From Effusibacillus dendaii (GTDB lineage Bacteria > Bacillota > Bacilli > Tumebacillales > Effusibacillaceae): a stretch of DNA of 64,000 bases. The first letter of the stretch is position 1, and each line of letters starts with the position of its first letter. The stretch is taken from positions 720,501 to 784,500 of the forward strand of contig NZ_AP023366.1 in NCBI RefSeq assembly GCF_015097055.1, given 5' to 3'. Shown here in pieces: positions 20,188-51,452 of this stretch. The position numbers and the translations under genes are program-made. Under the pieces are notes generated by a model. The model was not told where the DNA came from. It worked only from the letters and a program-made list of their open reading frames with translations, and searched no databases.

Positions 20188-20775
20188 ATGCATCCTAACA
20201 ATAAAATTTGGCTCTTTCTGGTTTGGCCCATTCTGACGCTTTGTATCTTCCTCACGGTGACTGGTTGCCGCCAGGCTGCCCAACACCCTCAAACGGGTCC
20301 CACAACTGAGGGAGTCAACAAACCTTGGCAGATCAAATCGACACCAGCCGAGAATCATCCGTCCCCCAAAGATGCAGGCCAAATTCCAAACAGTCAGGAC
20401 CCAACTTTAAGAGCTCCAGAGCAGGCAGAAAGACATCCGAATCCAAATCCGAAAGCGGAAGCGGATCATATGGCACAAGTATTAACCGGCATCCCTGGTG
20501 TTCAACACGCATATGTGCTTTTAACGGGACGTGTTGCTTTAGTCGGGGTAGATCTGAAGTCAAATATTAGCGGTTCAAAGATTGATACGGTTAAATATTC
20601 GGTCAAAGAGGCGGCCGAAAGGACAGGTCCGGGTTATCGAGCCATTGTGTCAGCCGATGTGGACACAGTTGCCCGTATTCGCCAAATGACTGCCGGTATC
20701 CGTCACGGACGCCCGATCTCTTCTTTTACAGATGAAATTGCCGACATTTTAAGCCGATTGATTCCGGAGACATAA
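20188..20775 (+). CDS. YhcN/YlaJ-family sporulation lipoprotein
   Basis: A 195-residue lipoprotein. The signal peptide ends TVTGC (Cys27). A Pro/Gln/Asn-rich linker follows, then a C-terminal YhcN/YlaJ domain (MAQVLTGIPGVQHAYVLLTGRVALVGVDL, about residues 95-195). Members are spore inner-membrane or cortex-associated lipoproteins made in the forespore. GAGGTG stands 7 nt before the ATG. A GAATA...AATACTA pair just upstream resembles a sigma-G promoter but would leave almost no leader, so it is not called. Confidence 0.82.
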   Translation: MHPNNKIWLFLVWPILTLCIFLTVTGCRQAAQHPQTGPTTEGVNKPWQIKSTPAENHPSPKDAGQIPNSQDPTLRAPEQAERHPNPNPKAEADHMAQVLTGIPGVQHAYVLLTGRVALVGVDLKSNISGSKIDTVKYSVKEAAERTGPGYRAIVSADVDTVARIRQMTAGIRHGRPISSFTDEIADILSRLIPET

Positions 20776-46808: not shown

Positions 46809-48311
46809 TTAATTCGGCTGCCGATCAGGGTCCTGCGGGCGAACGATAGCGGGACGTTTGTTGATCCGCTGGATCGGCGAGCGAATGAACAGATCCAGAA
46901 AGGCGCCAATTTCTAAAGGAAACAATGGCCACATATAGGGACGTCCGACCGATTGGGTAGTAAACAGAAGCAGCATCCACAACCCCACGCCGATGATCAA
47001 TCCAGGCAGTTTGAATGCCCAAACGGCAACAATCAGACCTAACCGAATCAGTCGGTTCGCCATCCCGACTTCGTAACTGGGGGTGGCATACATACCCAGC
47101 ACGGCAATCGCCAGGTATAGAATCGTTTCATTATTAAAGAGCCCCACCCCGACCGCAATTTGTCCGATCAGAACGGCCGCAATCAAGCCCATTGCGGTAG
47201 CCAGCGGTGTGGGAGTATGAATGGCTGCCATCCGCATCATGTCTAACCCAAGATCGGCAAGAATAAACTGCAGTGCAATCGGGACTTTAGCCGATTTTTC
47301 CGGACCAATAAACGTCAATCCATGCGGCAGCCAATCGCGGTGAAAGACAGCAAACAAAAGCCAGAGAGGAACTAAAAAGACAGAAGCCAAAACGGCAAAC
47401 AGGCGCACCATTCGAATGTAGCCACCCACCGCCGGATTGTTCCTGTATTCCTCCGCATGCTGCAGATGGTGGAAAAACGTGGCGGGTGTTATCATTACAG
47501 ACGGAGACGTGTCCACGTAAATCAAAACGTGCCCCTCCAATAAATGGATCGCTGCTACGTCTGGCCGTTCCGTATAACGGACAACCGGATACGGATTCCA
47601 ACCTTTTTGCACGAGGAATTCTTCCACCGATTTTTCCGCCATCGGGATTCCATCCACTTCAATTTTTTCAAGCCGCTGCTTGATCTCTTTCACCAAATTG
47701 GGATCAGCGACATCCTGTATGTAGGCGACCGCAATATCCGTTTTGGAGCGGACACCAATTTTCATATTTTCAAAAATCAGCCGCGGATCGCGAATCCTTC
47801 TTCTTGTCATGACCGTATTTATCACCAGAGTTTCGACAAAACCGTCACGGGCGCCACGTACCACCTTTTCCAAATCCGGTTCTTCCGGTGTACGATTAGG
47901 GTATTGCCTGGCATCCACGATCAGTGCCTGGTCAATTGTATCGATCAAAAAAGCGGTTTGACCTGTAAGAACGGCCGAAACCACTTCCGCTGTCGTTTTC
48001 ACTGCGCTCACTTGAATATGCGCCATGTAAGTCGATAGTAGGTTTTGCAGGACATCGGACACCAACTGCTCCCGTTCAAGCGTTGACAGGTACCGAAGGA
48101 TATCGGACAAAATGTGGTCTTTTACAAAACCGTTAATATACAGAATACCGAAATCTTTGCCGGCAAACTCCATTTTACGGAGAACCACATCGTAACTTTT
48201 GCCAATGCTCAACGCTTTACTAAAAAATTGAAGGTTCTCCTCTAACTTTTTCTCCAAAGCGAGCTTCTGATCACTCGGCGGGATGTCCGTATTCGTTTGA
48301 ATATGAGGCAT
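46809..48311 (-). CDS. spoVAF: Spore germination-related protein SpoVAF (GerA family)
   Basis: A 500-residue GerA-family membrane protein: soluble N-terminal half (YINGFVKDHILSDILRYLS, VETLVINTVMTRRRIRDPRL) and a C-terminal half with several TM helices (LFAVLASVFLVPLWLLFAVF; LGMYATPSYEVGMANRLIRL). SpoVAF works with FigP/SpoVA to amplify germinant-triggered ion release in B. subtilis. The ATG at 48311 has GGAGTG 6 nt upstream and overlaps spoVAEA by 41 bp. Confidence 0.93.
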   Translation of the reverse strand: MPHIQTNTDIPPSDQKLALEKKLEENLQFFSKALSIGKSYDVVLRKMEFAGKDFGILYINGFVKDHILSDILRYLSTLEREQLVSDVLQNLLSTYMAHIQVSAVKTTAEVVSAVLTGQTAFLIDTIDQALIVDARQYPNRTPEEPDLEKVVRGARDGFVETLVINTVMTRRRIRDPRLIFENMKIGVRSKTDIAVAYIQDVADPNLVKEIKQRLEKIEVDGIPMAEKSVEEFLVQKGWNPYPVVRYTERPDVAAIHLLEGHVLIYVDTSPSVMITPATFFHHLQHAEEYRNNPAVGGYIRMVRLFAVLASVFLVPLWLLFAVFHRDWLPHGLTFIGPEKSAKVPIALQFILADLGLDMMRMAAIHTPTPLATAMGLIAAVLIGQIAVGVGLFNNETILYLAIAVLGMYATPSYEVGMANRLIRLGLIVAVWAFKLPGLIIGVGLWMLLLFTTQSVGRPYMWPLFPLEIGAFLDLFIRSPIQRINKRPAIVRPQDPDRQPN

Positions 48312-48909
48312 CGAAACCACTCCGTTTCAATATTTCCATGATGGCAGCAGTTGTAATGGGCGCTCCTTTATAATAGGCGTCATTTCCCTGCATCTTTCCG
48401 ATATCGCCCATTCCTACCACAATCGGCACATTCAGTTTCCTCAGCACGTCGACCGTATCGCCCACGATGACAGGGCGCTTCAGCCCTAACGGGTAGCCGT
48501 CTTTATTCACACCGTCATAGACCATATTGCCATCACGGTCGAGTGAAAAATCCACTTTTGTTCCCAATCCGATAGTGGTGTTGGCTGCAACCGCAATCGC
48601 GCCAATCACTTCAATAGCGGGATGGCGAATAAAATCGAGCAGCGTTTTCTCGCCGACTCCTTCCCACTCATCCCCATTATCGTCAAACATTACAATCACC
48701 GGGTCATGCTTCGCCTTCAGCACCAGTTTTACCAGCTGCTTGGCATAGAGAGGGGAAGGATTTCCCGCCGAACGGGAAATCACACGGGCTCCTACTTGTC
48801 GAGCTGCGGTCTCGACCGATTTGCGAGCAATTTGGTCGCCATCCGTAATCACGATCACCTTGCGTTTGGCGGCCGGTTTATTGGAATGGGATTCCGGTTC
48901 CGAATCCAT
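48271..48909 (-). CDS. spoVAEA: Stage V sporulation protein AEA
   Basis: A 212-residue soluble protein: KRKVIVITDGDQIARKSVETA at the N-terminus, PVIVMFDDNGDEWEGVGEKTLLDF in the middle and VVGMGDIGKMQGNDAYYKGAPI near the C-terminus match SpoVAEA. It associates with the SpoVA DPA channel. GGGGGG stands 6 nt before the ATG at 48909. Confidence 0.93.
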   Translation of the reverse strand: MDSEPESHSNKPAAKRKVIVITDGDQIARKSVETAARQVGARVISRSAGNPSPLYAKQLVKLVLKAKHDPVIVMFDDNGDEWEGVGEKTLLDFIRHPAIEVIGAIAVAANTTIGLGTKVDFSLDRDGNMVYDGVNKDGYPLGLKRPVIVGDTVDVLRKLNVPIVVGMGDIGKMQGNDAYYKGAPITTAAIMEILKRSGFDASYSNEYGHPAE

Positions 48910-48925
48910 CACAATCCCCCCGCTC

Positions 48926-49276
48926 CTATCCTCTCGCACGAAAGACCAGCGCCGCCAAAAAACTGAAAATGATGGCTGCCGAAATACCTGCGCTGGTCAC
49001 TTCAAAAATTCCGGTAATGATGCCGACCAATCCTTCTTTTTGCGCTTCCGCCATCGCACCGTGCACCAACGAGTTGCCAAAACTGGTGATGGGAACCGAT
49101 GCACCCGCTCCGGCAAATTTGATAAGCGGTTCATATAAGCCGAATCCGTCCAGTATCGCACCTGCTACAACCAGAATCACCATCACGTGGGCAGGCGTCA
49201 AAGTGGTCAAATCCATCAACAATTGTCCCACCACACAGATCAAGCCGCCAATTACAAACGCCCAAAAAAAGGTCAT
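48926..49276 (-). CDS. spoVAEB: Stage V sporulation protein AEB
   Basis: A 116-residue membrane protein of the SpoVAC/AEB group, part of the DPA channel: [40 protein letters not shown] and [29 protein letters not shown] 10 nt before the ATG lies inside the remains of the spoVAD 3' end. Confidence 0.93.
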
Positions 49277-49280
49277 GGTT

Positions 49281-50085
49281 TTATGCACCTCCTGCTTCAA
49301 TTGCGACCGCATGGGCAATACATGGAATACTTTCCCCCTTAGGTAACCGTTGCACAACAGGCGCAGCCGCTTCCGCCAGAAAATACTTCCGGTTGATCCG
49401 GATGGTAGATCAAAACTCCGCAATCCTCATATCTGTCTTCGATTGAATATCCGTTGTTTTCCAGCATTTCGCGCGCGATTGGCGCACCGATTCGCGCCAA
49501 ATCGCCCGTAACAATCAGATCATAATCGGCTGGCGTACGGCCTGTATCCTGAAAATGGGCCGTGATCGTATCGACCGCTGCTGGCGCCATCGCAGCCCCC
49601 ATCTCCCAAGGGCTTTTGATTCCCCAATCGATCACTTTGCCGATTGTCGCGTGTGTGATCAGATGCCCTTTCTCGCTTTTCCCGACCAGCGCCGCGCCCG
49701 CTCCGGTTACTGTGCAGTGGGCGGTCGGCGGCTTTTGTCCGCCATATTCGGTCGGATAGCGAAATTGCCGCTCCGCTGTTGAATTATGGCTCGATGTAGC
49801 AGCAATCGCATAGTTTGCATAACCGCTGTCAACAAGCTGCGCCGCCAAAGCGAGTCCTTCCATGGAAGTCGAGCAAGCCCCCAATATGCCCAAATAGGGA
49901 CGAGCGGCGGTTCTCGCAGAAAAACTGGAAGTTGTAATCTGATTGACAAGGTCCCCGCTCAAAATCAAATCCACCTGGTCGGATGTAGGCCCCGCTTTTT
50001 CAATCGCCAGTTGGATAGATTGTTCCAACAGCTTTTCTTCCGCCTTCGCCCAACTGTTTTGTCCTTGTTTACCTACTTTGCCCAT
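49281..50085 (-). pseudogene. spoVAD: spoVAD with two internal deletions, 3' frameshift
   Basis: SpoVAD is the thiolase-like DPA-binding spore protein, about 338 residues in B. subtilis. Here the reading frame gives only 248 residues (50085-49339). The start MGKVGKQ is normal but jumps directly to QNSWAKAEEKLLEQ, lacking about 40 N-terminal residues. After [13 protein letters not shown] a TAA occurs; the expected C-terminus [17 protein letters not shown] continues in another frame and stops at 49281, about 33 codons having been lost. The core (ACSTSMEGLALAAQLVDSGY, AATSSHNSTAERQFRYPTEY) is intact. A shortened but translated protein is possible. Confidence 0.82.
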
Positions 50086-50096
50086 ACGCCACCTCC

Positions 50097-50555
50097 TTAG
50101 ATCTTGTTAACGAAATAACGGATCAAAGCGATAAAAAAAGCTGCTACCGTTCCGTATACGATGACCGGTCCCGCCAGTTTGAACATATTTCCGGACACCC
50201 CGAGGACAAGTCCTTCGCTCTTGCTCTCAAGAGCACAAGATGCCATTGAATTGGCAAAACCGGTGACAGGCACAGCCGAGCCGGCTCCTGCCCACTGACC
50301 GATTCGGTCATAGACGCCAAACCCTGTTAACAGCACAGATATAAAAATGAGAGTGGCAACCGTCGGATTGCTGGCGGATCGCTCCGGGAAATCGAACACC
50401 TTCATGTAAAACATCTGTATAAATTGACCGATCAGACAGATCAGTCCGCCGACCAAAAAAGCCCGTATCGTATTTCGCAGAACGGGCTTCTGCGGCGTTC
50501 TTGCTCTGGCAAAATCTTTATACGTCTGTTTGCTTTGCGACCCGCTTGTAATCAT
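50097..50555 (-). CDS. spoVAC: Stage V sporulation protein AC
   Basis: A 152-residue membrane protein with several TM helices, the mechanosensitive subunit of the DPA channel. TIRAFLVGGLICLIGQFIQMF, GFGVYDRIGQWAGAGSAVPV and TGFANSMASCALESKSEGLV are highly characteristic. GGGGGTG lies 8 nt before the ATG at 50555. First gene of a spoVAC-AD-AEB-AEA-AF operon directly after sigF. Confidence 0.94.
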   Translation of the reverse strand: MITSGSQSKQTYKDFARARTPQKPVLRNTIRAFLVGGLICLIGQFIQMFYMKVFDFPERSASNPTVATLIFISVLLTGFGVYDRIGQWAGAGSAVPVTGFANSMASCALESKSEGLVLGVSGNMFKLAGPVIVYGTVAAFFIALIRYFVNKI

Positions 50556-50595
50556 GAGAACTACACCCCCTTGCCTGGAATTTCTTTCGATTCTA

Positions 50596-50626
50596 TAGAA
50601 TCCCACGGATTGCTGACTGCTATCCA
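50596..50626 (-). promoter_or_regulatory. Possible sigma-G promoter of the spoVA operon
   Basis: On the minus strand TGGATA (-35) and GATTCTA (-10, consensus CATTCTA) are 18 bp apart, 40 bp upstream of spoVAC and beyond the sigF terminator. Forespore expression of spoVA is known in B. subtilis. Confidence 0.45.
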
Positions 50627-50630
50627 TGAA

Positions 50631-50674
50631 AACAAAAAACATCCCGCCTCACTGTAAAAGTGAAACGAGATGTT
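50631..50674 (-). terminator. Terminator between sigF and spoVAC
   Basis: A 9-bp outer stem (AACATCTCG/CGGGATGTT) with an inner CACT/AGTG helix is followed on the minus strand by TTTTTTGTTTT. It separates the spoIIA operon from spoVA. Confidence 0.85.
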
Positions 50675-50691
50675 CTAAGCACGTTCGGACC

Positions 50692-51441
50692 TTACCCCAG
50701 CTGATCCTTAATCGTTTGCAAAATCCGTTTTTCCAGCCGGGATACCTGCACTTGCGAGATGCCTAATACCTCGGCTACTTCCGCCTGTGTTTTGTCGCGG
50801 AAAAACCGCAAAAAAACGATCAATCGTTCACGCTCCGGCAGCTTGGTGAGCGCATCGTGCAGCGACAGTCTGTCAAACCAGCGTTCCTGCGTATCGTCAG
50901 CAATTTGATCTGCCAAATAAATCGGATCTCCGTCATTTTCATAGACCGTTTCATGAATGGAAGCCGGCTGCCGCAGCGCCTCTTGTGCGAAAACGATTTC
51001 CGCCGGTTCCATTCCCATGATTTCCGCCACTTCGTTTACATGCGGCTGACGGCCTGTTTTTTTGGAAAATTCGTCCCTCACCCGGCGGATTTGTCTGGCT
51101 GTCTCCTTGAGGGAACGGGAGATTTTAATTGTTGAATCATCGCGCAAAAAACGCTGGATTTCGCCGATAATCATAGGCACCGCATAGGTGGAGAAACGGA
51201 CGTCATAATTCAAATCAAATTTATCAATCGCTTTCATCAGCCCGATACAGCCGATCTGAAACAGATCGTCCGGTTCGTATCCCCTGTTCAGGAAGCGTTG
51301 CACCACCGACCAGACCAAACGTTGGTTGGCAACGACCAATTGTTCACGGGCTGACTGTTCGCCCGATTGACTCCTGGCAATTAAATCCTTGACTTGTTCA
51401 TCAGCCAGTTTGCCTGTTGAAGGACTTCGATATTGTTCCAT
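50692..51441 (-). CDS. sigF: RNA polymerase sigma-F factor
   Basis: The first forespore-specific sigma factor, 249 residues. Region 2 (DLFQIGCIGLMKAIDKFDLNYDVRFSTYAVPMIIGEI), region 3 and region 4 with the helix-turn-helix (LPERERLIVFLRFFRDKTQAEVAEVLGISQVQVSRLE) are complete. The ATG at 51441 has GGGG 7 nt upstream. Third gene of spoIIAA-spoIIAB-sigF. Confidence 0.96.
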   Translation of the reverse strand: MEQYRSPSTGKLADEQVKDLIARSQSGEQSAREQLVVANQRLVWSVVQRFLNRGYEPDDLFQIGCIGLMKAIDKFDLNYDVRFSTYAVPMIIGEIQRFLRDDSTIKISRSLKETARQIRRVRDEFSKKTGRQPHVNEVAEIMGMEPAEIVFAQEALRQPASIHETVYENDGDPIYLADQIADDTQERWFDRLSLHDALTKLPERERLIVFLRFFRDKTQAEVAEVLGISQVQVSRLEKRILQTIKDQLG

Positions 51442-51452
51442 AGGCAAACCCC

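Follow-up and report, generated by a model that had tools for sequence, protein, structure and literature searches.

The sigF-linked copy of spoVAD in Effusibacillus dendaii, hereafter spoVAD1, has probably lost its function recently through two real deletions, tolerated because an intact spoVA2-type operon in the same genome would import dipicolinic acid (DPA). The gene lies in a window of 64,000 nucleotides (the whole stretch of DNA that was analysed), taken from a genome that is a single contig of 3,454,394 bp (G000). Genomes compared with it included three congeners (G001, G002 and G003) and two outgroups (G006 and G007).

Lesions were read from an alignment with the sigF-linked spoVAD genes of two genomes of the same genus and one of the same order (Table 1). 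The reading frame has retained its start codon, and its translation starts with MGKVGKQ, then passes directly to GQNSWAKAEEKLL...CCATVT*, the final TAA (49341-49339) being a product of deletion 2. The C-terminal remnant sits just upstream of spoVAEb (ATG at 49276-49274). A sequence-only reading of the window had proposed two internal deletions of about 120 and 100 bp, and a C-terminal end resuming out of frame near spoVAEb. Both sizes and their coordinates were correct (117 and 92 bp in the alignment with the three relatives), and the end is indeed found in another frame, at 49334-49281. Against the SpoVAD family model PF07451 (329 positions), the window copy matches from position 43 to about 283-285 only, and so falls short of full length. 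Compared with its relatives, spoVAD1 is therefore a damaged ORF, as in pseudogenes, with two deletions and a premature TAA.

Table 1. Positions of spoVAD1, its lesions and its neighbours in the window.
Feature	Position	Strand	Basis
spoVAF (GerA family), intact	46809..48320	minus	Pfam match
spoVAEa (SpoVAE family), intact	48271..48912	minus	Pfam match
spoVAEb, intact	48926..49276	minus	Pfam match
spoVAD1 C-terminal remnant, 17 codons and own stop, other frame	49281..49334	minus	alignment; weak match to 299-336 of the G001 protein
Deletion 2 junction, about 92 bp towards the 3' end	49339..49340	minus	alignment, 3 relatives
spoVAD1 reading frame, internally deleted	49339..50085	minus	248 aa, alignment and Pfam match
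Deletion 1 junction, 117 bp (39 codons), in frame, past codon 7	50064..50065	minus	alignment, 3 relatives
spoVAC, intact	50097..50555	minus	Pfam match
sigF, marker of the usual (spoVA1-type) locus	50692..51447	minus	sequence resemblance

The surrounding operon is preserved. Its spoVAC, spoVAEb, spoVAEa and spoVAF genes match their Pfam families over nearly the full length, which bears out the earlier statement that the partners spoVAC and spoVAEb are intact. A GGAGGT motif (49292-49287) is kept ahead of the spoVAEb ATG, the gap between the spoVAD1 stop and the spoVAEb start being now of 62 bases. Genes 87-88% identical to sigF occupy the corresponding position in G001 and G002. Two of these names are our assumptions: spoVAF is presumed from the position of the gene, and sigF from sequence resemblance. 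The interval between sigF and spoVAC (50556-50691) is too small for spoVAA and spoVAB.

Relocation of the missing pieces within the genome was ruled out, as a search with a full-length G001 protein gave no match beyond both copies of spoVAD and the remnant. When the two pieces were searched as G001 DNA, matches to the E. dendaii genome were at chance level (E 0.35 or more); such DNA is a weak probe, the proteins being about 75-80% identical, and more weight is due to the search with the protein. Upon comparison with the relatives by eye, no bases common to both sides were found at the junctions. This is a weak argument against slippage between direct repeats, of which a deletion takes away one copy, given that these are the relatives' bases and not the ancestor's.

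The internally deleted form is not the usual form of spoVAD. Among 20 SpoVAD places collected from 14 genomes of the same order, 17 extend over all of the Pfam model (1-329), two, from the fragmented drafts G003 and G005, are located where contigs end, and the only internally short one is that of E. dendaii. An ORF longer than 300 aa was present in 80/80 loci in a scan of named species genomes, these being the best 80 of at least 581, i.e. a non-random sample that includes some genomes counted elsewhere in the comparison. A class-wide search gave a SpoVAD match in 195 of 249 genomes (183 over the cut-off); the places it lists are the best-scoring ones, from which the frequency of short copies is not inferable, and it was not used for that purpose. 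Neither deletion occurs in any relative compared. In the literature sought on SpoVAD and pseudogenes, we found no description of a broken spoVAD in the accessible parts of the texts, and make no claim of its absence from print.

A second, full-length spoVAD is present at 2.12 Mb (G000:C1:2123517-2124503). Its product is 59% identical to the short protein over their common part, matches PF07451 from 1 to 329 (520.9 bits), i.e. over the whole model, and keeps 46/46 invariant and 44/47 near-invariant positions. The gene belongs to an operon coding for DUF1657, DUF421-DUF1657, SpoVAC, SpoVAD and SpoVAEb proteins, all over the Pfam cut-offs, which is the gene set of the spoVA2 type. A second spoVAD elsewhere in the genome was one of three options raised from the sequence alone, and the genome-wide search suggested there found it, full length and in a complete operon. 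Beside this operon no YhcN/YlaJ (NJ2) gene was found; the genome has five PF09580 matches, all away from 2.12 Mb. One of them lies in the window (20395-20760, E 4.2e-22). To judge from the B. anthracis system, one of the five proteins might act as the cap does there.

The second SpoVAD is also encoded in G001 and G002, and the third congener, G003, a fragmented draft, gave a single partial SpoVAD match. In the tree, the three second copies group together (100/100), apart from the sigF-linked copies, and the short copy clusters with the sigF-linked copies of its congeners (99/89). The second SpoVAD of G001 (L033 6696-7748) has about 17 extra residues near ...QERDDEPAGKGDDREDRL..., which its G000 and G002 counterparts lack.

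Both DPA synthase genes, dpaA and dpaB, were found over the cut-offs in the E. dendaii genome, as was a transporter gene of the ylbJ family, which we take to be equivalent to SpoVV. The species is reported to form spores, which were stained after 30 min at 80 °C, in the available part of its description (PMC8502169). Together with the SpoVAC, SpoVAD and SpoVAEb genes at 2.12 Mb, which code for the minimal channel according to the accessible text of a review (PMC11841064), these findings suggest that spoVA2 carries DPA import in E. dendaii. The sequence-only reading had pointed to the essential role of SpoVAD in B. subtilis; this does not transfer to a genome in which spoVA2 is present as well.

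We next consider whether the 248-aa protein could still be functional, as a smaller SpoVAD, with both complexes active. Its start codon is kept, deletion 1 is in frame and the retained part is conserved. Moreover, its residues 8-248 align with residues 47-286 of the B. subtilis SpoVAD chain (PDB 3lm6), and its predicted core resembles that structure (TM-score 0.81 when normalised to the length of the query and 0.62 to that of the target). Unlike B. subtilis SpoVAD, however, it is devoid of the part before residue 47, except for seven residues, and of the part after 286. In a model of the intact homologue from Tumebacillus, the lost parts correspond to strands 8-10, 16-24, 302-310 and 325-333 and to the second half of helix 280-296, so that the fold has lost strands from both its N-terminal and its C-terminal part. 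Model confidence is also below that of this homologue from another species (pLDDT 79.4 versus 89.9, pTM 0.78 versus 0.91), and is weakest at both ends (the last block is at 53) and at residues 107-116, a loop that is uncertain in the intact model as well. Finally, 9/46 invariant and 15/47 near-invariant positions are missing or changed. We therefore judge the short protein to be probably inactive, and a working short SpoVAD, a very improbable proposal, is the least likely of the readings.

Within the retained part, relaxed constraint was not detected by conserved positions, dN or branch length, all of which resembled those of the intact sisters. Compared with 110 distinct homologues, 37/38 invariant and 29/29 near-invariant positions are kept; at the sole changed invariant site, residue 13, which is six codons past junction 1, E is replaced by A. 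With G007 as outgroup, dN is 0.226 for the short copy, the intact sisters having 0.232 and 0.229; with G006, the short copy is slightly in excess (0.232 versus 0.225 and 0.213). The end branch of the tree is 0.21 for the short copy and for both sisters. Between G000 and G001, dN/dS is 0.071, a coarse value only, dS being near or beyond saturation between species. The absence of clearly relaxed constraint implies either that the loss is young or that it is an artefact; a young loss would give the same picture as an intact gene.

An artefact would mean that the chromosome carries a whole spoVAD1, of which the PacBio/FALCON consensus lost two stretches about 0.7 kb apart. The assembly of strain skT53 (AP023366), published as Effusibacillus sp. 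and named E. dendaii in PMC8502169, was built from PacBio RS II data only with FALCON 2.14, with no polishing described (PMC8297450). This history, the seemingly full constraint on the retained part (dN to G007 and end branches as in the sisters) and the occurrence of the deletions in no relative all speak for such an error. On the other hand, the raw yield was about 394-fold (our arithmetic from figures in PMC8297450), the affected gene is one with a complete backup elsewhere on the chromosome, and a chance error would not favour such a gene, and a collapse of repeats is not expected between two spoVAD copies whose proteins are only 59% identical.

We thus looked for other dropouts by comparing ORFs of 100 aa or more, 77 and 254 taken respectively from stretches of G001 and G002, with 304 kb of G000. 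Retaining best hits of at least 55% identity left 42 and 120 comparisons, i.e. 162, after 35 and 134 ORFs had been dropped before the count; the two sets overlap in the G000 genes hit. Flags were raised in 21/162 comparisons. Two of these are spoVAD, the sole internal loss in G000. Among the others, four are due to runs of N in G002, four to C-terminal divergence, one to an internal loss in G002 and not in G000, one to an incorrect frame read ahead of the true start, and one to a T run of G000 in which a single nucleotide shifts the frame; eight were dismissed by eye (seven over-long start choices and one transposase-like paralogue). Widespread dropouts are thus ruled out for the 304 kb compared.

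The T-run case (L047 about 1160-1420, G000:C1 about 661,660-661,920) consists of an extra T compared with G002; the frame is thereby shifted close to the N-terminus of a gene presumably related to SagB-type dehydrogenases. Either the frameshift is real or it is a sequencing error left in the consensus, and as such it gives a hint of residual errors in the assembly. Two features of G002 were also recorded. One of its ORFs (L058 6444-7013, L042 5505-6536), which we take to be a luciferase-like monooxygenase, matches G000 as two pieces whose spacing there is larger by about 456 bp, and seems to be an internally shortened copy. In the G002:C108 draft (L054-L063, L038-L041), 12 runs of N, mostly of 66-91 bases, are found in 264 kb, and mimic deletions of 24-26 aa.

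With no similar loss elsewhere in the 304 kb compared, assembly error, another option of the sequence-only reading, is disfavoured: it is the second likeliest reading, after recent natural loss, and we hold it possible but doubtful. We infer that the deletions are real. Several points nevertheless count against a recent natural loss. Apart from the deletions, spoVAD1 bears no mark of decay other than the one invariant-site change, and two separate deletions without other damage are a little unusual. The PacBio-only assembly without described polishing (PMC8297450), with a single-base frameshift elsewhere, counts against it too, as does the lack of a YhcN/YlaJ gene in the spoVA2 operon, unlike in B. 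anthracis.

Under recent natural loss, the two deletions would have knocked out spoVAD1 in the sigF-linked spoVA1 operon, and the operon at 2.12 Mb would supply the SpoVAC/SpoVAD/SpoVAEb complex that imports DPA into the forespore. The rest of spoVA1 may persist both because the loss is young and because spoVAF is still useful in germination. A mixed DPA channel, made of the intact SpoVAC1 and SpoVAEb1, still produced from the spoVA1 operon, with SpoVAD2 as plug, the D subunits being common to both complexes, seems to us rather improbable. All in all, the case looks like the decay of a duplicated gene, and not like a new system.

If the deletions are real, recent loss of spoVAD1 would be a natural spoVA1 loss of a subunit essential in B. 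subtilis, in a genome with spoVA2, and would parallel in a distant lineage a result obtained in the laboratory with B. anthracis. It would also open to experiment the question of a C1/Eb1 channel deprived of its D plug, which may be harmless or may borrow D2. Should the pieces in fact be present, the case would be a warning on PacBio-only assemblies.

Among known systems, the second operon resembles the spoVA2mob operon of Tn1546 in Bacillus, as far as the available part of its report goes (PMC5133452), in having DUF1657, spoVAC, spoVAD, spoVAEb and DUF421-DUF1657 genes. It differs from it by gene order, DUF1657 and DUF421-DUF1657 being ahead of spoVAC in E. dendaii, by the lack of a YhcN/YlaJ gene, and by its surroundings, where no transposon genes were recognised by eye over 16 kb.

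The closest parallel is with the spoVA1 and spoVA2 loci of B. anthracis, taken here from the accessible part of the published study (PMC13059800). Both species have two loci, each with the core genes C, D and Eb. The B. anthracis spoVA2 contains a YhcN/YlaJ (NJ2) gene, whereas the E. dendaii operon is without one; in B. anthracis, a spoVA core without the YhcN/YlaJ cap is reported to move DPA, with reduced efficiency. The spoVA2 locus is described there as necessary and sufficient for wild-type DPA, germination of D1::Tn as wild type, and spoVAF as the top spoVA1 gene for germination. The loss of spoVA1 was made in the laboratory in B. anthracis, whereas the E. dendaii gene is broken in the genome sequence. 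As published, this loss is tolerated for sporulation, a spoVA1 deletion sporulating like the wild type, and since it is tolerated in the presence of spoVA2, losing spoVAD1 should likewise be tolerated where D2 is intact.
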